From a virus, in the IMG/VR virus record IMGVR_UViG_3300023184_000003, positions 1 through 41,807 of that record: DNA of 41,807 bases; one strand, given 5' to 3'. The position numbers were made by a program, and so were the translations under genes. Within the stretch, counting starts at the first letter, position 1. Each line of letters begins with the position of its first letter. Shown here one piece after another: positions 3,306 through 41,807 of the stretch. The notes under the pieces were generated by a model. That model saw nothing but the letters and a program-made list of their open reading frames with translations. It did no database searches and was not told where the DNA came from.

Positions 3306-3665
3306 CTAATCTGCCTCAGGAGACTGGAATATGCCCTTGCGTAGGGCATCGCGGACATAATCAGGCATAGGAATCGCATCCCGATTTTCCAAGTCCTCAG
3401 CCCTAAACTTGTCAGGTACTCGCGTTGGTGGCAAAGCGGTTGCTTTTCTACCTGCCTGAATCAAAGTGTTACGCGTAATCACTTGTCCTTCAATGGCAAC
3501 TTGTTTTACAAGCGGCGCAATTTTTTCGTATGAAACTTCCTTCAAGATATTTGCTAACTGACCTGCCATTTGTGGTCGCGCTGGCTTTATGTCTCCCGTA
3601 AAGTTCTCAAAGTAAATACGCATTAGTTCTTGGATTTGTTTGCCTTGACTTGGTTCATCACTCAC
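3306..3665 (-). CDS. Hypothetical replication-type protein (119 aa)
   Basis: GTG at 3665 has AGGAAGG eight bases upstream and overlaps the WhiB gene end, so I prefer it to the ATG at 3698. The N-terminal helices (KQIQELMRIYFENFTG; QMAGQLANILKEV; KIAPLVKQVAIEG) resemble the helical N-terminal domain seen in phage replisome organisers and helicase loaders. The C-terminal third is polar with a YVRDALRKG helix. The replication role is only an inference from shape and position next to recombination genes. Confidence 0.45.
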   Translation of the reverse strand: MSDEPSQGKQIQELMRIYFENFTGDIKPARPQMAGQLANILKEVSYEKIAPLVKQVAIEGQVITRNTLIQAGRKATALPPTRVPDKFRAEDLENRDAIPMPDYVRDALRKGIFQSPEAD

Positions 3666-4062
3666 TTGTTGGCCTTCCTGTAAAATCAAAAATACCAAAG
3701 ACTCGCTTAACTGAATGAACGATTGCTTGTAGTTCTTGGTATTTCTCAGGTTGAAATTGTAAGTCTCGCTTTAATCGTTGCAGGACTTTAATATGCCCTG
3801 CGCTTATGTGACGCGAACTTTCATAGATTGCGGTGCGTTCTTCTTCCGCCAGACCACCCCAGAACCCATAGCGTTCCATTGATGTTCCTATCTGCAAACA
3901 TTCTTTTTGGATAGGACAATCAAAACACATACGGCGTAGGTAGTTATAACTAAATCCTTCATCGGCTAGTTCACCACGCATTAGATAAAATAGTTTTGTA
4001 TCTAATCCTCTGCATGATGCCCTATCCCATTCAACTTGTCTGCGTGTTATTTGGACGGACAT
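3658..4062 (-). CDS. WhiB-like transcription regulator
   Basis: The Fe-S ligands C17, C46, C49 and C55 are in the Wbl pattern, followed by the family signature YGFWGGLAEEER at about residues 65-76. The C-terminal 50 residues form a basic helix region. Wbl proteins are 4Fe-4S proteins that bind the host primary sigma factor and are found only in actinobacteria and their phages, so this is the clearest host marker in the window. In other actinophages Wbl proteins alter host transcription and exclude other phages. Here it may also act on the three leader elements, which lack a clear -35 box (inference). Confidence 0.92.
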   Translation of the reverse strand: MSVQITRRQVEWDRASCRGLDTKLFYLMRGELADEGFSYNYLRRMCFDCPIQKECLQIGTSMERYGFWGGLAEEERTAIYESSRHISAGHIKVLQRLKRDLQFQPEKYQELQAIVHSVKRVFGIFDFTGRPTSE

Positions 4063-20997: not shown

Positions 20998-22368
20998 TTA
21001 GTTCTCTGACTTAGGGTTGGCTTTAGCAATGAAATCATTGTATAGAGCGCGGTATCCCTTAGCGAGAACTGGGTCGGTTGTTGCGTCAGCCTTAGCCTTA
21101 TATGTTGCCGCTTTTACAAGCAGGTCATTTGTGGCTTCGTCTGACATTTTAGTTGCTGTGCGCTTAGGGCCACCGGCAACTGATTTAGATAATGCCGTTG
21201 CTAGGTCAGATTCAAGTTTTACTGACTTCTCTACTGCGGCCTCTTTATCCGCACGCAAAGCATCAATCTCCGACTTGACCGATTCCATAGCACTCTTAAC
21301 GGCTTTCTCAACTACATCTTCAAGAGATGTAACCTCTGTGGCTTCAACAGCCTCAGAAACTTCTTCAGCAACAGGCGCATCTTCAGCGGCAGGTGCTTCT
21401 TCAACAACAGGTGCTTCCTCTGCATCAGCAGATTTGGATGCTTCATCTGTTGCGGTTTCTTCATCTTGTTCAACATTTTTTGCGGCCATGCACTTATCGC
21501 ACTTGCCACAATCGCCATCTGCACAGTCCGGCATATCTGCCTTTGTTTCTGAGTCAGCGGCTAATTCAATTGTTTCTTCCATAACTTCTCCCTCTGCTTC
21601 TTCACCTTCGTACCAAGCAAGTAGATGATTTACTGCTTCCATTAAATGAGCAATACTCATGCGCTCATCTGAACCTTCTGTTGTCATTTCATTTGCTTCC
21701 ACAACAATAAGGTCTGCAAGTGCTTTACGCGCCTTGTCAAATAAATCCTTATCGAACTTTGCAGAATCAGGTGTCAGAGACTTAGCCAATTCTGTAATCT
21801 GCTTAATCGTTTCCATCTTTGAACCTTTCGCGCTCATTTTTGCTACCACGGACGGTAGGGGTGCTTTGTATTCATGTAGTTCTTCTACTTGAACCAAACT
21901 TGATTCGCCTTCAACTGCTTTAGCCAAAATCAATTTGGCTGACGGGTTGGCGGGTCTATCCACTAAACTGACTTCGATTATCTGCCCGTCTACAATGCGT
22001 CCGTTAGCGGCTTTTAAGTCGCGGACAACGCGTGGAGATTTAATGCCAATAGAAAATCCTTGGTATACACCAGTCTCTACTTTCTTGGCGGCAAGCGGGT
22101 CTACAACATGCACGCCAATATAATGACCATCACCTTTTGCTTCGTATTCTTTTGCAATACCTGCGGCTGATGGACCATGCATCTCTCGGATGTTTCCGCC
22201 TGACTTAAACCAGCGAGGCATCGCTTCATCTAACCACTTAGGGTCACAAATCTGTGAATCCAAATCTAGTGTGTCATCTGTTGCCTTGCCGTACACCATG
22301 AGTGTTCCGTCATCATTTTTGTCATACTTGACAATTTGCGCATATCCTGTTGCGTAATCCATAGCCAT
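20998..22368 (-). CDS. Prohead protease fused to scaffold
   Basis: 456 residues. The first ~150 are the HK97-type S78 protease: H64 in REMHGPSAAG and S134 in IEVSLVDRP are the catalytic residues. The rest is a Glu/Ala-rich, low-complexity, coiled-coil scaffold region. Unusually, residues 282-293 hold a tight cysteine group (C282, C287, C290, C293), a likely zinc site inside the scaffold. The protease cleaves the scaffold and the capsid N-arm during maturation. It lies right upstream of the capsid gene. Confidence 0.88.
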   Translation of the reverse strand: MAMDYATGYAQIVKYDKNDDGTLMVYGKATDDTLDLDSQICDPKWLDEAMPRWFKSGGNIREMHGPSAAGIAKEYEAKGDGHYIGVHVVDPLAAKKVETGVYQGFSIGIKSPRVVRDLKAANGRIVDGQIIEVSLVDRPANPSAKLILAKAVEGESSLVQVEELHEYKAPLPSVVAKMSAKGSKMETIKQITELAKSLTPDSAKFDKDLFDKARKALADLIVVEANEMTTEGSDERMSIAHLMEAVNHLLAWYEGEEAEGEVMEETIELAADSETKADMPDCADGDCGKCDKCMAAKNVEQDEETATDEASKSADAEEAPVVEEAPAAEDAPVAEEVSEAVEATEVTSLEDVVEKAVKSAMESVKSEIDALRADKEAAVEKSVKLESDLATALSKSVAGGPKRTATKMSDEATNDLLVKAATYKAKADATTDPVLAKGYRALYNDFIAKANPKSEN

Positions 22369-28241: not shown

Positions 28242-28550
28242 TTATTTGAGTGAGTCTACATCAAATTCATCAACTTTAACTTCGGTAGCCTCTACCGGAA
28301 GTTGTGTTGATACATATTGTGATTCATAAACTGCATCAAGGTGGGCTTCATTGACCAGTTCCCATAATTCAATTTTGGTAAAATCTGACGGCTTCTTTGA
28401 CGCTTCAACGTCTACGGTTTTGCTGAACTTAGATACATAGTCATTAAGTGAATATTCAACCTCTACATCCCACTTAATTACATTGCCATCAAGGTCTACT
28501 GTAGGAATAGCCTTGGTGATTGTCTTTACCGCATTGTCTGTATGTGACAT
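28242..28550 (-). CDS. Hypothetical protein behind the giant fibre (102 aa)
   Basis: The ATG at 28550 shares its base with the fibre stop. It begins with beta strands (IPTVDLDGNVIKWDVEVEYSL), continues with SKFSKTVDVEASKKP and a helical IELWELVNEAHLDAVYE, and ends in an acidic tail. It could be a small fibre-associated or fibre-assembly protein by analogy with other phages. No family recognised. Confidence 0.55.
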   Translation of the reverse strand: MSHTDNAVKTITKAIPTVDLDGNVIKWDVEVEYSLNDYVSKFSKTVDVEASKKPSDFTKIELWELVNEAHLDAVYESQYVSTQLPVEATEVKVDEFDVDSLK

Positions 28551-31500
28551 TAGTTTACCTTTGCTTCTAGTTCAGCGACCTTTGCTGAAAGTTCTTGTAC
28601 TGCCTTGACCAATATAGGGATTAATCTACCCTGAGTTGCTTCTAGTTTTTCTGGATTATCGCGGTATGTCAATTGTAAGTACTCAGCAAGTTCTGCTTCA
28701 TCCTCTGCTGCCATCAATTCCTGAGCAATAAAGCCTGTATCCTTAACGCCGACCTTACCACCATCACGCATATTCCAAGTAAATGTTACTGGGTGTAACT
28801 TGTTAATGAAGTCTAATCCAACTGGGATTGATTCAATGTTTGTCTTATCACGAGAATCTGATAGCGCAGTAATAGATGTAACTTGGCAGCGAAGAGTTGC
28901 GATAGACGAGTTGCCAAGAGTAATTTGATTAGAAACAGTTACAGAGGTGGCACGAGTTGAGTTTCCAAGCAACATATTGTTGCCACCAGTTGTAATGTCA
29001 GAACCAGCATCATTACCTACAAAAGTGTTTCCGTTTCCTGTTGTTACAGCATTACCTGAGTTAAGACCAACACCCACATTATATTGTCCAGTAGTGTTAG
29101 CGCCTAATGCACTATGTCCAACAGCGGTATTATATTGTCCAGTAGTGTTAGCATCAAGAGCGTATGAACCAACAGCAATATTGTAGACACCTATTGTATT
29201 GTATACAAGAGCATCTTTTCCAACAGCAACATTTTCATAACCAGTAGTATTAGAAAGTAATGCTTGATGTCCAACAGCAACATTGTTATTACCAATTGTA
29301 TTTGATGCAAGTGCAGTTGAACCAATTGCAACAAGATTTGCACCAATTGTATTAGCAGCAAGCGCATTTTGTCCAACAGCAGTATTTCGTACACCAGTAG
29401 TATTACCATTAAGTGATTGATAACCAACTGCTGTGTTATCAGTACCAGTTGTATTAACAAACAATGAAGGAGAACCAATTGCAACATTAGTTGAACCAAT
29501 AGTATTATACCTTAATGCATTAGTACCAAGCGCAACATTGTTAATTCCAATAGTATTAGCATACAATGCTTGATACCCTACTGCAGTGTTAGTATAACCA
29601 GTAGTGTTGCTATATAAAGCAGTATTACCAATTGCTACGTTGTTAACACCAATTGTATTTGAAGCCAAAGCACTTTTGCCAACTGCAGTATTATCTGTAG
29701 CAGTAGTATTATTTTGTAATGCATATGCACCAATAGCAATGTTGTTAGTTCCAGTAGTATTTAATTGTAAAGTTTGAGAACCAAGTGCCGTATTTCCTTG
29801 ACCAATTGTATTGGTGTACATTGATTGAAAACCAATAGCAGTGTTGTCTACTCCAGTAGTATTTAATGTAAGGGCAATACGACCCATAGCGGTATTACCG
29901 ACAACGGTGTTATTTGCTAAAGCACCTACACCAACTGCGGTATTCCAATAACCTGTTGTATTAAGTTGAAGTGCGTTAATTCCAATTGCAGTATTTTCAT
30001 AACCTGTTGTGTTGGTGGTTAAAGCGCCATATCCAACAGCAATATTGTTATAGCCAACAGTATTAGCATCAAGAGCAAAGATACCCACCGCAGTATTGGC
30101 TGAACCAGTTGTATTGACAAGCATTGCATTAACACCAATTGCTATGTTGTTTTCACCAGTAGTGTTAGCACCTAAAGAGTTGCTGCCAATAGCAACGTTG
30201 TATGAGCCAATAGTGTTAGCATCAAGTGCATATGCGCCAACTGCTGTGTTGTTAATACCAGTTGTATTGGCACCAAGTGCTAAGTTACCTATAGCAACGT
30301 TTGCAGAACCTGCTGTATTATTTTGTAAAGTTCCATAACCTAAAGAACTATTTTCTGCTCCCGTAGTGCTTAATGCTTGGGAATTAAAACCAACTGCTGT
30401 AACTCCAGCGTTTGTTGTATTTGCACCTAGCGCGCCTATGCCAACAGCAACATTTGCATATCCTATTGTATTTGCATCAAGTGCGTATGAACCAATGGCT
30501 ACGTTTTGTATACCTGTTGTGTTTGCTGCTAATGCAACATGTCCAATTGCTACATTTTCATAACCTATTGTATTTCCAGCAAGAGCGCTAGTACCAACTG
30601 CTACGTTTCGAAGTCCAGTTGTGTTTACATTAAGCGCAGCATACCCAACAGCAACATTTTCAAGTCCTGTAGTATTTGACTGTAATGTGCCTAAACCCAC
30701 GCCAGTATTATTATATCCAATAGTATTAGAAGTAAGAGAGTTAACACCAATAGAAACGTTATTAGAACCAGTTGTATTCGCATCTAGAGCATAAGAACCA
30801 ATTGCTACGTTTTGTATACCTGTTGTGTTGGCAGCAAGGGCATTATAACCAACAGCAGTGTTATCATTACCTGTAGTATTGTTTTGCATTGCAAGACGAC
30901 CAACAGCAATGTTGTTAACTCCTATTGTGTTTTCAAATAATGCTCTATGACCAACGGCTGTGTTATCAGCGCCTGTTGTGTTTGCACCTAATGAATTAGT
31001 ACCAACTGATGTATTTCTTGCACCAGTAGTATTAGCATCCATTGCGTTAAGACCAATAGCCACATTGCCATCACCTATTGTATTAAGAGCAAGAGCGGCC
31101 GAGCCTATTGCTACATTGCTAGCACCAGTTGTATTAGCAGCAAGAACTCCAGGACCTACGCCAACGTTGCTTGAAATAGCACCTGCTCCAGGTCCAACAA
31201 CCATAGCGTTAATTGTTGTAGCAGTTGCAGCACCTAGTACTGGCGTAACAAGCGTAGGAGTATTAGCAAATACTAATGCTCCAGAACCAGTCTCGTCTGT
31301 AACGGCTGTGGCTAAATTAGTAGAGGAGGGGGTAGTTAAGAAAGTCTGTACGCCAGTACCTAACGCAAATGAGAACCCACCAGTAGTTCCTTGAAGTCCT
31401 GTTGTTCCTTGTGAACCAGTCGTACCTTGTGCGCCAGTTAAGCCCTGAGTACCTGTAGAACCTTGAATACCTGTAAGTCCTTGGCTACCTGTGACACCCT

Positions 31501-32977
31501 GTAAGCCAATTAGACCCTGAGTACCTTGTGTGCCGTTTGTTCCTTGACTGCCAGTTGTACCCTGCAATCCGATTAAACCTTGTGCGCCTGTTGTTCCCTG
31601 TGTGCCATTAAGTCCTTGCGAACCTGTTGCACCAGTTGTTCCTTGTAATCCAGTTAGTCCTTGTATGCCTTGTGTTCCATTTGCGCCTTGTGCACCAGTA
31701 AATCCTTGCAAACCAATTGTGCCTTGTGCTCCGTCTGCACCTTGAATTCCGCTTGCACCTTGACTACCAACTGTGCCTTGAACACCTTGGCTACCTGTCG
31801 TGCCTTGATTACCAGCAACGCCTTGGATGCCTGTAAGCCCTTGTAATCCTGTTGTACCTTGCGCGCCGATAATACCCTGCGCACCAGTTGTACCTTGTAC
31901 GCCAACGCTTTGTGTAATTAAAGAAATGTTATGCCCGTTTGTGAAACCTGTTGTGCCTACGCCGCCTGATGATAAAAGCGTTGCGGGATAAGTCCAATAA
32001 TCATTAGCAACAGTTGTAGGTGTACCGCTTACTTGCCATTCTTGATAATTAGCAGAATTATTTTTATCTTGAATAAAGAAAATATCGCCATTTTTAATAT
32101 TGGCTAACAACACATCTATATCTACATTTCCAACTGTAAGGTGAGATACATAAATGTTTGTTGCAAGAATTTGAACTACATTATCCCATTTAATATCCCC
32201 AGAATTAGGCGGTGGGGTTTGTGAATTGGTTCGAGCGTTATATTCAAAAATAGATGATGATGTACCGCTTGCGCCTGTAACACCTTGAACACCTTGAATA
32301 CCGCTTACGCCTTGGCTACCCGTGATTCCTTGTGAACCTGTACCTGTTGTGCCTTGTGTACCAAAACTTCCTTGAACACCAGTTAAACCTTGTGTTCCTT
32401 GGCTGCCGATTGTTCCCTGTGCGCCAATTAATCCTTGCAGACCTTCGGAACCTTGGATACCTGTTACGCCTTGTGAACCAACTTGTCCTTGCGCACCAAA
32501 AGCACCTTGCGCACCAATTGCGCCCTGAATACCAGTTAATCCTTGTAAGCCAGTTTGACCCTGAGCACCTACAAGACCTTGTGCACCAGTCGCGCCTTGG
32601 GTTCCTGTTAATCCTTGTGTGCCAGTTGTTCCTTGCGACCCAGTACGACCTTGCACACCTTGGACGCCTTGCGTTCCTTGTGAGCCAGTAATTCCCTGAG
32701 TGCCTTGCACACCCTGAGTTCCTTGTACTCCTTGCAAGCCTTGTGCACCCTGTATACCTTGAGTTCCCTGAACGCCTTGTGTTCCCTGAACACCCTGCAA
32801 TCCCTGAACGCCCTGTGTGCCTTGAATACCAACAGCACCTTGAATACCAGTTGTTCCTTGAACGCCCTGAGTACCTTGTCTGCCTTGTACTCCTTGTGTT
32901 CCTTGGATACCACGAGAACCTGCGGCACTAACAATAATGTCTGCAACAACAGGGGTTACAATTATCTCATCAGCCAT
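28550..32977 (-). CDS. Giant tail fibre: collagen-like, 17-residue beta-roll array, S74 chaperone
   Basis: 1475 residues. Residues ~22-233 are collagen-like Gly-X-Y triplets very rich in Gln; 234-357 form a globular beta insertion; 358-530 return to collagen-like triplets. Residues ~615-1345 are ~43 tandem 17-residue units of the form NTTGxxNxAxGxxALxx, resembling YadA-type left-handed beta-roll heads. From S1373 the peptidase_S74 chaperone starts (SDSRDK with Ser1373/Lys1378; then FTWNMRDG and FIAQELM), ending in a coiled coil. It should be a long trimeric fibre that is cut after folding. It is the largest gene in the window and is mostly repeats, so copy number may vary. Confidence 0.85.
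28946..31135 (-). repeat. 51-bp tandem repeat array coding the beta-roll
   Basis: About 43 units of 51 bp, each encoding 17 residues with the fixed core N-T-T/I-G...N-x-A-x-G...L. One unit is 16 residues long (48 bp) and one is degenerate at each end. Units differ in the variable positions but share codons in the core, so slippage and recombination are likely. It is not a CRISPR array: the spacing is exactly in-frame and there are no spacers. Confidence 0.85.
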
Positions 32978-35079: not shown

Positions 35080-36105
35080 TTACTTACCAGTCACAGGCTT
35101 GTTCCAAGTAACACCTTCGTTATCCTTGAACCAGTCAATAGTTAATTTAATGCCTTCTGAAAGTGGCTTAAAGTCTTTAATGTCCATACCAATTGCGCGT
35201 AAGGTATCAGGGTCAGCCGATACGACTGTGCCTAATTCTCTTGTAACTCTTTGGATGTCAATGCGACTTAACTTAGGATTAACCTGTGCAACTGCATCAA
35301 CAATTGCTTTAAGGTCATCAGGAGTTTGTATAGCACCACCATGTGGTTCGCCTGTACGCATTGGCACATTATCAATCACGGCACTTGGAATGTGCTTTTG
35401 GATTTCTTGTGCCACATCTAATACTGTGTAAGGTGTTGCGTTACCTACATCAATTGGATGATTAGGCACATTTCCCTTTACCGCTTCTTCAAGTGCGGTA
35501 ACAAATACTTTAGCAACATCTCCTACCCATACTGTGTCGCTGTACTGAGTACCGCCACCATATAGGCGCATTGCATCACCTGACAAAGCAGATGTAATAA
35601 ATGATGGCACAATCTTGCGAACCTTTGCAGAGCCGTAAGGTGTTGGCGCAGACTGGCGTGGACCATACGCGTTCATTGGTCGCACAGATGTAATCTTTAA
35701 TCCTCTATCTTCTCGGTACATAGCAACAAATCGCTCACCGCAAGATTTAGTAATGCAATAAGTACCTCGCGCAATATTGGCATTACCAACTGCGGCAAAA
35801 ACTATTGGTAAGTCATAACGGGATGCGGCTTCAAATACATTAAGCGTACCCATGATGTTAGTTTCAGCGGCGGCGTGTGGCGCATCAATGGTCTCGGTAG
35901 TACCAAGCACAGCGGCTAAGTGGATGATGGCATCTACATGTGCCGCCATTTCCATAACGATAGTCATATCGCGTACATCACCAAGCAAGCCATGTTCCAA
36001 GCGACCTTTGTGGTCTAACACATACGGCGTGTGTCCTCGCGCTTCAAGTTCTTCGCAAATCCATGAGCCAATAAATCCTGCTCCGCCTGTTACTCCTACA
36101 ATCAT
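35080..36105 (-). CDS. NAD-dependent epimerase/dehydratase (SDR)
   Basis: 341 residues from ATG 36105 (ATGA overlap with the gene before, GGAAGG upstream). GGAGFIGSWI is the Rossmann NAD site, HLAAVLGTTET and the Y-x-x-x-K pair in TYCITKSCGERF are the extended SDR catalytic signature. Such enzymes convert nucleotide sugars (for example UDP- or GDP-sugars). It is coupled to the TAGT-like glycosyltransferase before it, so it may supply its sugar donor. Confidence 0.85.
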   Translation of the reverse strand: MIVGVTGGAGFIGSWICEELEARGHTPYVLDHKGRLEHGLLGDVRDMTIVMEMAAHVDAIIHLAAVLGTTETIDAPHAAAETNIMGTLNVFEAASRYDLPIVFAAVGNANIARGTYCITKSCGERFVAMYREDRGLKITSVRPMNAYGPRQSAPTPYGSAKVRKIVPSFITSALSGDAMRLYGGGTQYSDTVWVGDVAKVFVTALEEAVKGNVPNHPIDVGNATPYTVLDVAQEIQKHIPSAVIDNVPMRTGEPHGGAIQTPDDLKAIVDAVAQVNPKLSRIDIQRVTRELGTVVSADPDTLRAIGMDIKDFKPLSEGIKLTIDWFKDNEGVTWNKPVTGK

Positions 36106-36956
36106 ACTATTGCCTTCCGATATTTTTGATTGATTATCTTTGGTACAGCGTAACGCCAATCTACTTTATGGTGCAAACGCCTATTTGCAGTACCCATAGG
36201 GTAAATCTTGACACAAGATGGTGCCATCATTACCGAGTAGAAACTTTTGGCATAAGTACCTTCCTCTAAATAGAGTTCGGTCATACCGCCTTGATTTGCT
36301 TGCGTTGCCATTTGTAGCACATTAACATGAAACGAGGTAAATATAAGTTCGCCTTGCGCACCATAGACTACATACAAATTAACATCATCATTTATCTTGC
36401 CTTTAAAGTCCACATACTTGTCAGTACGCAGAAAAAAACTATTCATAGCCTTGCGTTGTAGTCCGCGCTTATAGTTTGGGCTGTTAATCCCACCAATCAT
36501 GTCTCCGCCTTGACCGAACGCTACTGTCAGCGAGTTAGTATCATCCAAGAATTGCAGCGTAGCCTCAGCCAGCGAGTCAAAATCCTTAACTCTAAACGAG
36601 GTCAATACGCCCTTCTTTATAAAGCGGTATCTTAAATCTGCATAGTCATCATCAAGTTGCAACATATAGTCCAACCCAAGTGCTTTTGCCATGTGCTGTG
36701 ATGCGTGACGCGCATAAATAATTGCTCTGCGGTCACCTGATGTATCGGCATCATCTATTTGGTCTGCAATTTCCTTCTTATTGAATTGCAATACCATGTC
36801 ACCATAACGCTCAAAATACTCGTCTGCTCTTACATCTTCATCATCAATAACAATGTAAGTCTTGCCAGTCCATCCGCTTCGTTGCAACATGTTTAAAGTC
36901 TTTATGTTATCTGGTCTGCCATGAGTTAAAATAAAGATGGCAAACTTTCTAGTCAT
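36102..36956 (-). CDS. TET-associated-glycosyltransferase-like enzyme (TAGT)
   Basis: 284 residues from ATG 36956. KFAIFILTHGRPDNIKTLNM, then YIVIDDEDVRADEYFERYGD, a SGDRRAIIYARH helix and LQLDDDY (D102-D104) match the TAGT/GREB1-like glycosyltransferase fold. In phages this family often sits in operons that oxidise and glucosylate DNA bases. No TET/JBP hydroxylase is in the window, so the acceptor is open: hydroxymethylated bases made another way, or a protein or glycan. Pairing with a ParB-like gene upstream and an epimerase downstream is suggestive. Confidence 0.6.
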   Translation of the reverse strand: MTRKFAIFILTHGRPDNIKTLNMLQRSGWTGKTYIVIDDEDVRADEYFERYGDMVLQFNKKEIADQIDDADTSGDRRAIIYARHASQHMAKALGLDYMLQLDDDYADLRYRFIKKGVLTSFRVKDFDSLAEATLQFLDDTNSLTVAFGQGGDMIGGINSPNYKRGLQRKAMNSFFLRTDKYVDFKGKINDDVNLYVVYGAQGELIFTSFHVNVLQMATQANQGGMTELYLEEGTYAKSFYSVMMAPSCVKIYPMGTANRRLHHKVDWRYAVPKIINQKYRKAIV

Positions 36957-37716
36957 TACCATCCAACGCTTCAAGGTCGGTAATGGTTGTTAAAAAGTTT
37001 GCGTATCCATTGCGAATGGCATCGTCAGCATCAATGATAACCAACGCGGATTCTTCCATTAGCCTTTGGATTTCAGGAGACTGGTGCGGATAGAATTCAG
37101 CAATCTGTCTGTAATCAAATTGAACATGGCGGTTAGCGGCTATCAATAGAAATTCTTTTATGTCGCTTGGTAAATGCGCTTCGTCAATTTGTTGCTTTAA
37201 GTTATCAGCCTTTGATGCGTTGTATAACTCCGTGAGGGGTGGTTCTTCTCCAACAATTTCATACTGCGGGATATTCATTTTGTTTGAATACTCTTGTTGC
37301 AGTCCTGCTGAGTTGTTAATTTCTTTTTGTAGCGAATCCATAATGCCATCATCAAAGCCAAAATCTTTTAAGTCCCAGCCTTCATCTTCCATCTCTAGTA
37401 ATTGAGAGACAAGAACAGGCGTATCCCACTCGGCTAATTCAGCGGTGCGATTGTCTGCAATAGCAAATGCCTTAGCGGTAGCAATATCCCAGTCACTAGG
37501 AACTTCAGTTATTGTGATTTCCGTCCAGCCCAAAGATTTAGCGGCTTCAATAGTTCCATTACCTGCAATGATTACGCCATTATGAACAACAATAGGCTTG
37601 CGTTGTCCAAACTTTTCCAATGATGACGCAATTGCTTTTAAGTTTTGTGGCGAGTGCTTACGCGCATTGTTAGGGTCATACGCAAGACCACTAATCGGTA
37701 CGGATTTGATTTCCAC
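36949..37716 (-). CDS. ParB-like protein with C-terminal helical domain
   Basis: 255 residues from GTG 37716 (GGGGGG just before). Residues ~1-75 are ParB/Srx-like: AYDPNNARKHSPQNLKAI, FGQRKPIVV and VIIAGNGTIEAAKSLGW. Unlike the common phage versions, no methyltransferase follows; instead a helical second half (LPSDIKEFLLIAANRHVQFDY; SPEIQRLMEESALVIID). ParB-type domains bind or cleave CTP-like nucleotides or act as nucleases. It is coupled to the TAGT-like gene. Start 37746 is possible but less supported. Confidence 0.6.
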   Translation of the reverse strand: MEIKSVPISGLAYDPNNARKHSPQNLKAIASSLEKFGQRKPIVVHNGVIIAGNGTIEAAKSLGWTEITITEVPSDWDIATAKAFAIADNRTAELAEWDTPVLVSQLLEMEDEGWDLKDFGFDDGIMDSLQKEINNSAGLQQEYSNKMNIPQYEIVGEEPPLTELYNASKADNLKQQIDEAHLPSDIKEFLLIAANRHVQFDYRQIAEFYPHQSPEIQRLMEESALVIIDADDAIRNGYANFLTTITDLEALDGND

Positions 37717-37891
37717 TTTGCCCCCCAGCAAGCGTAAGCCTAGCATCTAACAAATCATCAACGCTTGAAAGGTAAAACTCTCGTTGCTGATGAGTCAATC
37801 TATGCCCGTAATAGTCTTGTAAAGATAAGCGCAGGTATTCCAACGCTTCATCTATATCTTCGACTGTGAGTTCATGTAGAACTATTTGCAT
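37691..37891 (-). CDS. Hypothetical helical protein (66 aa)
   Basis: Two long helices (VEDIDEALEYLRLSLQDYY, QREFYLSSVDDLLDARLTL) and a short polar tail. No cysteines. It overlaps the ParB-like gene start by 26 nt. A 49-nt gap with a small inverted repeat (AGCC/GGCT) separates it from the HTH gene upstream. Not recognised. Confidence 0.55.
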   Translation of the reverse strand: MQIVLHELTVEDIDEALEYLRLSLQDYYGHRLTHQQREFYLSSVDDLLDARLTLAGGQSGNQIRTD

Positions 37892-38715: not shown

Positions 38716-38891
38716 TTGCCTTTGGCATCTCGCTTTGCTTTTAACGCTTCAACTTCTTCGCGGTTGTAATACACCCGCTTGCCCTTCTTTTCCGCCCACT
38801 TTAATTGTTTGCGGTGTTCTATCTGATGTAAGTTGTTGGCTTTAATACCTAACAACTCACATACTTCTTCCGATGAGATTAAAATGGCCAT
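38712..38891 (-). CDS. Small HTH protein (59 aa), excisionase-like
   Basis: ATG at 38891; stop overlapping the next ATG (ATGA). Sequence MAILISSEEVCELLGIKANN, then LHQIEHRKQLKWAEKK and KRVYYNREEVEALKAK is a helix_17 type DNA-binding fold like MerR. It overlaps the SSB end by 13 nt. Probably a local regulator; no integrase is present to pair with it. Confidence 0.65.
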   Translation of the reverse strand: MAILISSEEVCELLGIKANNLHQIEHRKQLKWAEKKGKRVYYNREEVEALKAKRDAKGK

Positions 38892-39262
38892 TCGTCTCCC
38901 TGTGTTTGTTTTTCAGGCTGAGACTTGCGCTTTAATGTGCCTACAACACCAATCATCTTGGCGCGAATCTCAAATCCTTGTTTTAAGTTGCCGTCTCGTC
39001 CTGTGAATTCAAATGCTTTTAACTCACCTTGAACAATTAACTTAATGCCTTTAAGTGGTGTATCTGCCAACCATTCTGCAAGTTCGCCAGTCGCACTTAC
39101 TTTCCACCAAACTGTTTCCCCTGTAACCCATTCACCATTCTTAAACTCTCTTGGTGATTCAGCCAATGAAAGATTAGCAATAGCAAAATCGCCCTTGCTT
39201 CCTTTAATATATTTTAGTTCAGCGTCTCCACCTGCATTACCTACTACCTCTATCTTCGCCAT
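38879..39262 (-). CDS. ssb: Single-stranded DNA-binding protein
   Basis: 127 residues. OB-fold strands (KIEVVGNAGGDAELKYI, FAIANLSLAE, VWWKVSATGELAEWL, IKLIVQGELKAFEF) and the acidic tail ending DEWPF, the motif SSB uses to contact partner proteins. It coats phage single strands during replication and recombination. It is the only clear replication-core protein in the window besides the recombination set. Its start overlaps the HNH gene end by 26 nt. Confidence 0.88.
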   Translation of the reverse strand: MAKIEVVGNAGGDAELKYIKGSKGDFAIANLSLAESPREFKNGEWVTGETVWWKVSATGELAEWLADTPLKGIKLIVQGELKAFEFTGRDGNLKQGFEIRAKMIGVVGTLKRKSQPEKQTQGDEWPF

Positions 39263-39590
39263 CTGAGCCTTCTTTCATGTATATGTATGAGCCTTCGTTG
39301 TCCAACAATACCTTACTATCATCCGAAAGTGTAAGAGGAAACTTGGAAGGACTCGCCCAACTTGGACAAATCTGCCCTCGTTCTATTGCCACCTTAGGGC
39401 GCATGTGGATAGAGTATGTTCCTAGGTTATGGCATTTATGATGCACCGCTATCAGGTTGCATACTTCATCTTTACCGCCCTGCGACTTTAATTTTCTATG
39501 ATGAAGCGCAAAGTCTCCACAAGATAATCCACAGGCTTCGCAATAATTACCTGCCCTTGCTAAGACTTTATCCACAATGTCTTGCTTCAT
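39237..39590 (-). CDS. HNH endonuclease
   Basis: 117 residues. The zinc pairs C17/C20 (YCEACG) and the second pair near C44 and C53, with H30-H31 and the N-L-I-A-V-H-H-K-C-H-N segment, form the HNH active site. Phage HNH proteins can be homing enzymes or part of terminase-linked cleavage. It is small, single-domain and lies next to the peptidase gene with an ATGA-type junction, so a homing insertion is less likely. Confidence 0.8.
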   Translation of the reverse strand: MKQDIVDKVLARAGNYCEACGLSCGDFALHHRKLKSQGGKDEVCNLIAVHHKCHNLGTYSIHMRPKVAIERGQICPSWASPSKFPLTLSDDSKVLLDNEGSYIYMKEGSDGEDRGSR

Positions 39591-40147
39591 GTGGATACTA
39601 CAAACTTGATATCTCCACCTGAGTACGCATCATATTTGGATGCAATTTTTATGGCTTTGCGTAGATAATTCTTAGCCTGAGTCACGGTCTCTACATTACC
39701 AGCATTTAAGGCTTCCAATGCACCAAGAGCAAATCGTTCCCCTGACCCAGCGACATAGATATTTTCTGCGCTTCGTTCCCAAGAATAGTCGGATTCAATT
39801 CTATAGATTTGATGTTGGATGCAGACGATAAAGATATTGTCATTTTCTACTGACTCGCCATCTCGTTTGTATTCATAATCCGCCATGTTAAAGCACTTGC
39901 GGATGGACGGCACTAAAATGCTGGTCACATATTTATCTATGTTCTTTAACTTGACCGCTGGTGCATCCCATCCATGCTCTAATAGATTGATGCCGCGAAC
40001 CTGACCAGCACCAGCAATAATTAGTTCATTGTTCCTAAAGATTTTGCCTGTCGGAATATTGATAGCGAACCCATCACCATCCGAGGACTGTGAATCACCT
40101 GCGATAACAGCCCAGCCGTCTCCTTGAATGGCGGCGATTGTGGTCAT
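39587..40147 (-). CDS. Proteasome-beta/HslV-like Ntn peptidase
   Basis: 186 residues from ATG 40147. After Met removal the N-terminal Thr1 is followed by TIAAIQGDGWAVIAGDSQ, with D17 in the exact HslV/proteasome place and K34 in the Lys33 region. Later GSGERFALGA supplies the Ser129-type serine, and YDAYSGG gives the Asp166-x-x-Ser169 pair. All five catalytic-network positions are thus visible. Subunits of this family form rings that degrade unfolded proteins. No partner ATPase is in the window. There is no clear Shine-Dalgarno; TATCCT lies six bases before the ATG, compatible with a leaderless transcript. Confidence 0.85.
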   Translation of the reverse strand: MTTIAAIQGDGWAVIAGDSQSSDGDGFAINIPTGKIFRNNELIIAGAGQVRGINLLEHGWDAPAVKLKNIDKYVTSILVPSIRKCFNMADYEYKRDGESVENDNIFIVCIQHQIYRIESDYSWERSAENIYVAGSGERFALGALEALNAGNVETVTQAKNYLRKAIKIASKYDAYSGGDIKFVVST

Positions 40148-40292: not shown

Positions 40293-40547
40293 TTATTCTA
40301 CCAATTCCCGCATCATGTCGTTAAGCGCAGGATAGTCCAATTTGTCTGACATGTATTCAACAGCATCAGGGGTGACCATATTGGTCATGTACATACCTAG
40401 AATAAAGCCAATGTAAGGATTGTCCTTATCAGGATTGTCTTGCATAAATCCTACCGCCTTGCGATAAAGTAATTCATCATTGTTAAGCCACATTGACACA
40501 TTCCATGTGTCTTTATTTTTCCAGCCGTTGTAAGTTGTATCGCTCAT
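40293..40547 (-). CDS. DUF7249-like small protein (84 aa)
   Basis: The start MSDTTYNGWKNKDTWNVSMWL with LNNDELLY resembles the small phage family DUF7249 (Y-N-G-W-K-N-x-x-T-W-N). The middle is helical with a short hydrophobic patch (YIGFILGMYMTNM). No known function. It is the last gene of the leader-3 operon and is followed two bases later by the hairpin series. Confidence 0.65.
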   Translation of the reverse strand: MSDTTYNGWKNKDTWNVSMWLNNDELLYRKAVGFMQDNPDKDNPYIGFILGMYMTNMVTPDAVEYMSDKLDYPALNDMMRELVE

Positions 40548-41360: not shown

Positions 41361-41786
41361 TTAGTACCAATTGTGGCGGCTCCACCAGCGCATAGCGGCG
41401 CATGGTGACCCATAGCGACTTTTGATATAGATGAACCCCCTTTGGATTTGGGCTGGAACGCCGATAGACGGATTTAGACCAAGAATTTGAGGTATACCAC
41501 CCGCATACAGTTTGACCCTCTTACCGCCTCTGGTCTGGATTACAGCGGTTTTGTTCTTGGCGGCTGGTCTCCAATTTGATTCCTTCGTCCAAAGCGCATC
41601 AAGGCATGACCATTCAGCGGCGGCTTTCCAGCCGTATGAATGCATCTGTATTTTGGCATGTGCCTTTGCTTGGTACGGAGTCGTGATATCAATTTTTGGA
41701 CTCTGTGCAATTGCAGGTGAAGCAACAACAATGCTTACGGCTATTACCGCTATTGCTAAGCATCGTTGAATGAACTTAACGCTAAG
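41361..41786 (-). CDS. Secreted lytic transglycosylase-like protein, junction-spanning, start unclear
   Basis: The mature part has CLDALWTKESNWRP (catalytic Glu in KES), AGGIPQILG and the C-terminal IKSRYGSPCAAMRWWSRHNWY-like end, the pattern of actinobacterial secreted transglycosylase domains. Upstream in frame lies a signal peptide: a basic KFIQR start, hydrophobic CLAIAVIAVSIVVA, then a cleavage site at about SPAIA-Q. The frame opens after TGA (41798-41796) but has no ATG, GTG or TTG before the hydrophobic core; candidates are CTT (41786) or ATT (41771). The next frame supplies a strong GGGGGGAA-ATG with MKLRKQA just upstream. A single-base indel or a +1 frameshift would restore a normal signal peptide. 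Confidence 0.7.
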   Translation of the reverse strand, partial: LSVKFIQRCLAIAVIAVSIVVASPAIAQSPKIDITTPYQAKAHAKIQMHSYGWKAAAEWSCLDALWTKESNWRPAAKNKTAVIQTRGGKRVKLYAGGIPQILGLNPSIGVPAQIQRGFIYIKSRYGSPCAAMRWWSRHNWY

Positions 41787-41807
41787 CCTGTTTCCTCAAT
41801 TTCATTT
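41681..41807. repeat. Terminal direct repeat, right copy
   Basis: Identical to bases 1-127. The transglycosylase gene is complete only when the two ends are joined at this overlap, which independently supports circular closure. Confidence 0.9.

Follow-up and report, generated by a model that had tools for sequence, protein, structure and literature searches.

A proteasome-like N-terminal threonine hydrolase gene in a probable actinophage genome: family, active site and gene contexts

The gene, its neighbours and the phage genome

The DNA analysed here, referred to as the window, is a viral contig of 41,807 nucleotides from IMG/VR, and the features of interest are collected in Table 1. Between positions 39587 and 40147 it carries a gene for a proteasome-like protein, whose ATG lies at 40147-40145 and whose stop codon lies at 39589-39587. 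This is the sole open frame in the interval, and the plus strand contains many stops in the same frame. An earlier note made from the letters of this DNA had given the coordinates of the gene correctly but had left its strand, which is the minus one, unstated. When residues are numbered with the Thr after the start Met as 1, the protein contains Thr1, Thr2, Asp17 (in IAGDS), Lys34, Gly47, Ser134 (in GSG), Asp172 and Ser175 (in DAYSGG), and each of the residues and motifs listed in that note is thus present on the minus strand.

Table 1. Coordinates of the protease gene, its catalytic codons and other features in the window
Feature	Position	Strand	Basis
Proteasome-like (BPH/HslV-type) N-terminal threonine hydrolase gene, 186 aa	39587..40147	-	Translation, PF00227, phrog_1040, AF2 model
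Catalytic Thr1 codon (second codon, after start Met)	40142..40144	-	Translation; invariant in relatives
Asp17 codon	40094..40096	-	Translation, alignments of relatives
Lys34 codon (proteasome Lys33 equivalent)	40043..40045	-	Translation, alignments of relatives
Gly47 codon (oxyanion hole)	40004..40006	-	Translation, alignments of relatives
Ser134 codon (proteasome Ser129 equivalent)	39743..39745	-	Translation, alignments of relatives
Asp172-Ala-Tyr-Ser175 codons (proteasome Asp166/Ser169 equivalents)	39620..39631	-	Translation, alignments of relatives
HNH endonuclease gene (context only)	39237..39590	-	Pfam, PHROGs
Single-strand DNA-binding protein (SSB), downstream neighbour (context only)	38879..39262	-	Pfam, PHROGs
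DUF7249 protein, upstream neighbour (context only)	40293..40547	-	PF23907, phrog_871
WhiB-like regulator, actinobacterial-host marker	3658..4062	-	PF02467, E=4.1e-12
Candidate head-maturation protease of the window phage, adjoins presumed major capsid gene	20998..22368	-	phrog_3270, E=7.9e-6

The HNH and SSB genes reported earlier as neighbours were recovered with both Pfam and PHROGs. The start ATG of the HNH gene (39590-39588) overlaps the stop codon of the protease gene as ATGA, which suggests that the two genes probably form one operon, and the protease is probably made together with the SSB/HNH replication-side genes. The gene order on the SSB side is also kept in the related loci L002-L005 and L184-L187.

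The window carries an exact direct terminal repeat of 127 bp (positions 1-127 are identical to 41681-41807), leaving about 41,680 unique bases. The repeat indicates that the assembly closes and that the genome is essentially complete, and the contig is a closed phage genome, probably circular or circularly permuted. This is in line with a second contig of 42 kb (G023), which encodes a protease 96% identical to that of the window and is largely collinear with the window genome but broken elsewhere. No match to PF07724 (AAA_2) or PF00004 (AAA) was found anywhere in the closed genome, so that the remark in the earlier note that no ATPase lies nearby holds genome-wide for these two families; neither appears among the 25 (of 31) Pfam families named for 46 proteins of the window. 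No proteasome alpha subunit accompanies the protease. The presence of a WhiB-like gene, which is an actinophage indicator (PMC10202952), suggests that the host is likely actinobacterial, and the host actinobacteria are probably of freshwater.

Two other regions of the window were noted. A minus-strand gene at 28550-32977 encodes a protein of 1475 aa in which long collagen-like GTQGxQG repeats give way to degenerate repeats of the NTTGxxNTAVG type, and its C-terminal region resembles, by eye, an intramolecular-chaperone tail fibre end. At 35080-37746, also on the minus strand, epimerase, glycosyltransferase-like and ParB-like genes stand in a row. The family PF20691 (TET-associated glycosyltransferase) is matched by one protein of the window with E=1.1e-33, and these findings together give a hint of modified DNA in the phage or of glycan-related functions.

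Family assignment, predicted fold and active site

The window protein matches the Pfam Proteasome family (PF00227) with E=1.6e-7 and a score of 31.6 bits, the cut-off being 22.4, and the PHROGs family phrog_1040 ("peptidase HslV family") with E=7e-31. A full-length phmmer alignment was obtained with the yeast proteasome beta5 subunit (PRE2, E about 1e-5). The AlphaFold2 model, built from 26 sequences (window and viral), has a mean pLDDT of 91.4 and a pTM of 0.88, and its strands and two pairs of helices follow the order of the family, with helices at residues 50-58, 70-88, 137-146 and 155-172. In a Foldseek search of the PDB the top matches were BPH (5ovs/5ovt, E about 1e-11, TM 0.75-0.78), followed by HslV and 20S beta, while the best match among viral models was a phage "HslV peptidase subunit" (TM 0.93). 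The window protein is thus a genuine Ntn peptidase of the proteasome/HslV family, with a match far beyond chance, as the earlier note had proposed from motifs; the Ntn sandwich on which that note had made its assignment depend is found in the model.

The bit scores against the NCBIfam HslV equivalogs (27.9 vs 157.75 for TIGR03692 and 27.0 vs 137 for NF003964) and against the archaeal-beta equivalog (34.1 vs 224) lie far below the cut-offs, and the bacterial 20S beta model TIGR03690 (PrcB) gave no match at E<=1. The identities as HslV, archaeal beta and PrcB were rejected on these grounds. A propeptide is absent, and each of the 84 proteins in the first set of relatives starts with Met-Thr-Thr. 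Fuchs, Alva and Lupas described 22 proteasome-like homologs in 2021, with PPH and AAH occurring in phages (PMC8665760). PPH, with about 140 aa and without helix H2 (PMC8665760), was likewise rejected, since the window protein is longer (186 aa) and its model includes a second helix at 70-88. The protein best fits the compact group I proteasome-like homologs of BPH/AAH type, on the HslV side of the family. It resembles phrog_1040, AAH and PPH in being phage-borne and proteasome-like, with neither a propeptide nor an AAA+ partner in its context. AAH was known from alpha-proteobacteria, actinobacteria and phages, but in 2021 none came from an actinobacterial phage (PMC8665760), whereas the window phage is probably an actinophage. 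PADLOC matched the protease to no defence protein.

The closest solved fold is that of BPH (PDB 5OVS/5OVT), which shares with the window protein the Met-Thr start, the same catalytic residues and the lack of a dedicated unfoldase. BPH is a double-ring tetradecamer in which removal of Met exposes Thr1, and it binds epoxomicin covalently (PMC5777263). It has no known unfoldase, has lost the HslU interface residues and showed no activity in any assay with peptides or casein (PMC5777263). A long acidic pore loop is characteristic of the BPH double ring. The window protein differs from it in sequence (17-19% identity), in being phage-borne and in its C-terminal DAYSGG, which reads like 20S beta. 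HslV (PDB 1G3I, 4HO7) is similar in its compact Ntn fold without C-terminal extension and in having Thr1 after Met, but the equivalog score is far below cut-off and the phage genome holds no HslU; an HslVU-type pair was rejected since no AAA_2 or AAA match is present. The 20S beta subunits (yeast PRE2, archaeal beta, PrcB) have the same Asp166/Ser169-type DAYSGG, whereas the window protein has neither a propeptide nor an alpha subunit.

In 84 aligned relatives Thr1, Thr2, Asp17, Lys34, Gly47 and Asp172 are invariant. Thr1, Asp17, Lys34 and Gly47 are also invariant in 128 distinct relatives, a set that was extracted by its TT start, so that the Thr1 and Thr2 counts are biased; four proteins that fell outside this selection and whose start is visible also begin with Met-Thr. 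The conservation of Thr1 across homologues, which the earlier note had proposed as a check, is therefore seen in both sets. Apart from one gapped row, the 128 proteins have Ser or Thr at the position of Ser134, and Asp172, the Asp166 equivalent, is missing in part of the largest distant portal-slot subfamily (see below). The dN/dS values of the window gene against its two nearest relatives are 0.036 and 0.050, with 0.04-0.06 among close relatives and 0.04-0.20 for other pairs. As judged from such sequence comparisons, the window protease is shown to be under purifying selection with its active-site residues intact, and a catalytically competent enzyme is what the predicted fold and residues best fit. 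Since BPH is inert on standard substrates, such competence need not imply general proteolysis.

The protein could be a proteolytic core served by an AAA+ unfoldase of the host (Mpa/ARC, ClpX or VCP-like) or by a host proteasome activator, or one that assembles together with host 20S subunits. Such an arrangement appears unlikely to us, although 20S proteasomes do occur in Actinobacteria (PMC8665760) and the phage itself encodes no AAA_2 or AAA match. The protein is too far from PrcB and HslV by the NCBIfam models, and it comes with neither propeptide nor alpha subunit. Moreover, BPH is without the HslU interface residues (PMC5777263), and no AAA+ proteins co-occurring with such homologs, or telling gene contexts, were found by Fuchs et al. 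(PMC8665760). The suggestion in the earlier note that the phage subunits mix with those of the host is not supported, given the missing 20S beta match and propeptide and the equivalog scores. A host AAA+ protein, HslU included, could still be a partner.

Relatives, gene contexts and the portal-adjacent slot

Phage proteasome-like genes are already known, and PHROGs and many phage records name such genes. In viral contigs one scan gave 199 confirmed relatives of the window protease, and a broader scan at least 565. Actinophage members of the wider proteasome-like family are now in GenBank, and annotated homologs occur in Actinomycetia phage DSL-LC01, Microbacterium phage Pumpernickel and Arthrobacter phages Pitbull and Hum25. 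These four homologs are similar to the window protein over the full length (29-37% identity) and have the same Thr1, Asp17, Lys and Gly47, but they lie in other gene neighbourhoods and are annotated merely as "protease" or "ATP-dependent protease subunit HslV". Two scans of bacterial genome contigs with short peptide patterns gave no relative, which are weak negatives, and plasmids gave just two partial matches with 28-30% identity. No DNA-level relative of the window was found among deposited phages, and the published work on freshwater actinophages that we found does not mention a proteasome-like protease.

The relatives occur in at least five gene contexts. The first is that of the window group, with the protease upstream of HNH and SSB. 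The second is a slot behind the portal gene in a podovirus-like lineage with a major capsid protein of phrog_1357 and a portal 44% identical to that of Beephvirinae Streptomyces phages. In the third, which comprises replication modules, the protease immediately follows a Toprim primase-like gene (by eye), and the neighbours of the window protein in the protease tree sit in replication modules. In the fourth, an Hsp20 gene (phrog_432, PF00011) is found a few genes upstream (L030, 4573-5190, and L239, L244, L247 and L248), and in the fifth the protease is upstream of phosphatase-like and deacetylase-like genes (both by eye) and terminase genes. In L010 (6837-8283) and similar loci, the genes between protease and terminase are, by eye, dual-specificity-phosphatase-like and histone-deacetylase-like. 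By eye, the replication genes of the second and third contexts are alike, so that the protease seems to have changed position among related phages. The AAA proteins in the contigs of the relatives are RecA/RepA-like (264 aa) or, by eye, MoxR-type ATPases of 330-500 aa; in two groups of relatives (L106 and L107, contigs G013 and G022) MoxR-type ATPases stand beside a metallopeptidase- or VWA-type partner gene (by eye).

The portal-adjacent slot was examined in 80 portal loci of the Beephvirinae-like lineage, in which the gene order is TerL, portal, protease, phrog_8200, a large protein and, further on, the major capsid gene. Enough downstream DNA for scoring was available in 71 loci. A proteasome-like gene lies directly behind the portal in 59 of these, and is absent from the remaining 12 with the flanking order kept. 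Five contigs among the 12 have no proteasome-like gene anywhere, and the same holds for the cultured Streptomyces relative, phage Immanuel3. In 50 loci with both portal and protease, the portals are about 75-90% identical, whereas the proteases fall into four divergent subfamilies (L088, 5350-5916; L102; L122; L142; L156), most cross-group pairs having 26-39% identity. In the tree, the two large groups form clearly distinct branches with support of 100/97 and 99/97. Protease identity is bimodal at equal portal identity, a pattern that fits replacement better than rapid divergence alone. Judged from this gene content, the portal-slot protease is an accessory gene that is kept, lost and swapped, because 12 of 71 loci lack it and four divergent subfamilies occupy the slot.

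These data bear on the view that the protease is a head-maturation or virion-morphogenesis enzyme cutting scaffold, portal or internal virion proteins. In the Beephvirinae-like lineage the gene does sit where a prohead protease is usually found, and 23 contigs gave no match to PF04586 above cut-off. An obligatory head-maturation protease, which the slot had suggested, was nevertheless rejected on the absences described above, and we regard the broader morphogenesis role as quite improbable for the window protein as well. Its gene lies at least 14 kb from the portal, MuF and capsid genes, the portal, MuF-like and terminase genes being elsewhere in the window, and related genes are in replication modules. 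The phage also has its own candidate head-maturation protease of phrog_3270, which speaks against an involvement of the proteasome-like protein in the capsid. A virion-linked role could apply in the lineage in which most loci keep the gene beside the portal.

Possible function of the phage protease

The literature that we found reports a function for no phage proteasome-like protein. Connectase arose within the same family (PMC8665760), and the group to which the window protein best fits has no assigned activity, which leaves some room for a specific protein ligase or transpeptidase, or an amidase, instead of a protease. We consider this very unlikely, since the signature two-helix insertion of connectase between strands 3 and 4 is missing in the model, and connectase itself was rejected for that reason. 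That the gene is a decaying or non-functional remnant is hardly credible, its dispensability in relatives being the sole point in favour, against dN/dS values of 0.04-0.2 and invariant catalytic residues.

By analogy with BPH, we somewhat favour a homo-oligomeric, unfoldase-independent Thr1 protease with an accessory role in host takeover or counter-defence, and not in capsid maturation. Host methionine aminopeptidase would remove the start Met and expose Thr1, making a propeptide unneeded. The subunits would then assemble as a homo-oligomeric double ring similar to that of BPH, with the active sites inside, and the enzyme may act without a dedicated unfoldase on one or a few unfolded or specifically recognised proteins in the infected cell. 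Swapping of the protease is expected if its target in the host varies, which favours host takeover or counter-defence over a capsid role. Counter-defence or host remodelling by the window protease is possible, and the accessory, swappable nature of the gene leans that way indirectly. More tentatively, such proteins might constitute actinophage-borne, largely phage-restricted proteases that work independently of an unfoldase, with the swaps at fixed genomic slots matching a host-specific target, for instance a defence protein that is destroyed.

What is new here is the range of gene contexts together with the pattern of presence, absence and replacement. The group offers many naturally occurring variants whose active site is intact, as well as presence/absence pairs within one lineage, and there are cultured relatives in Arthrobacter phages Pitbull and Hum25 and Microbacterium phage Pumpernickel, so that the use of proteasomes by phages is open to direct test. 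Should the protease prove to need no ATPase, it would also indicate to what extent the proteasome fold can operate in the absence of an unfoldase.
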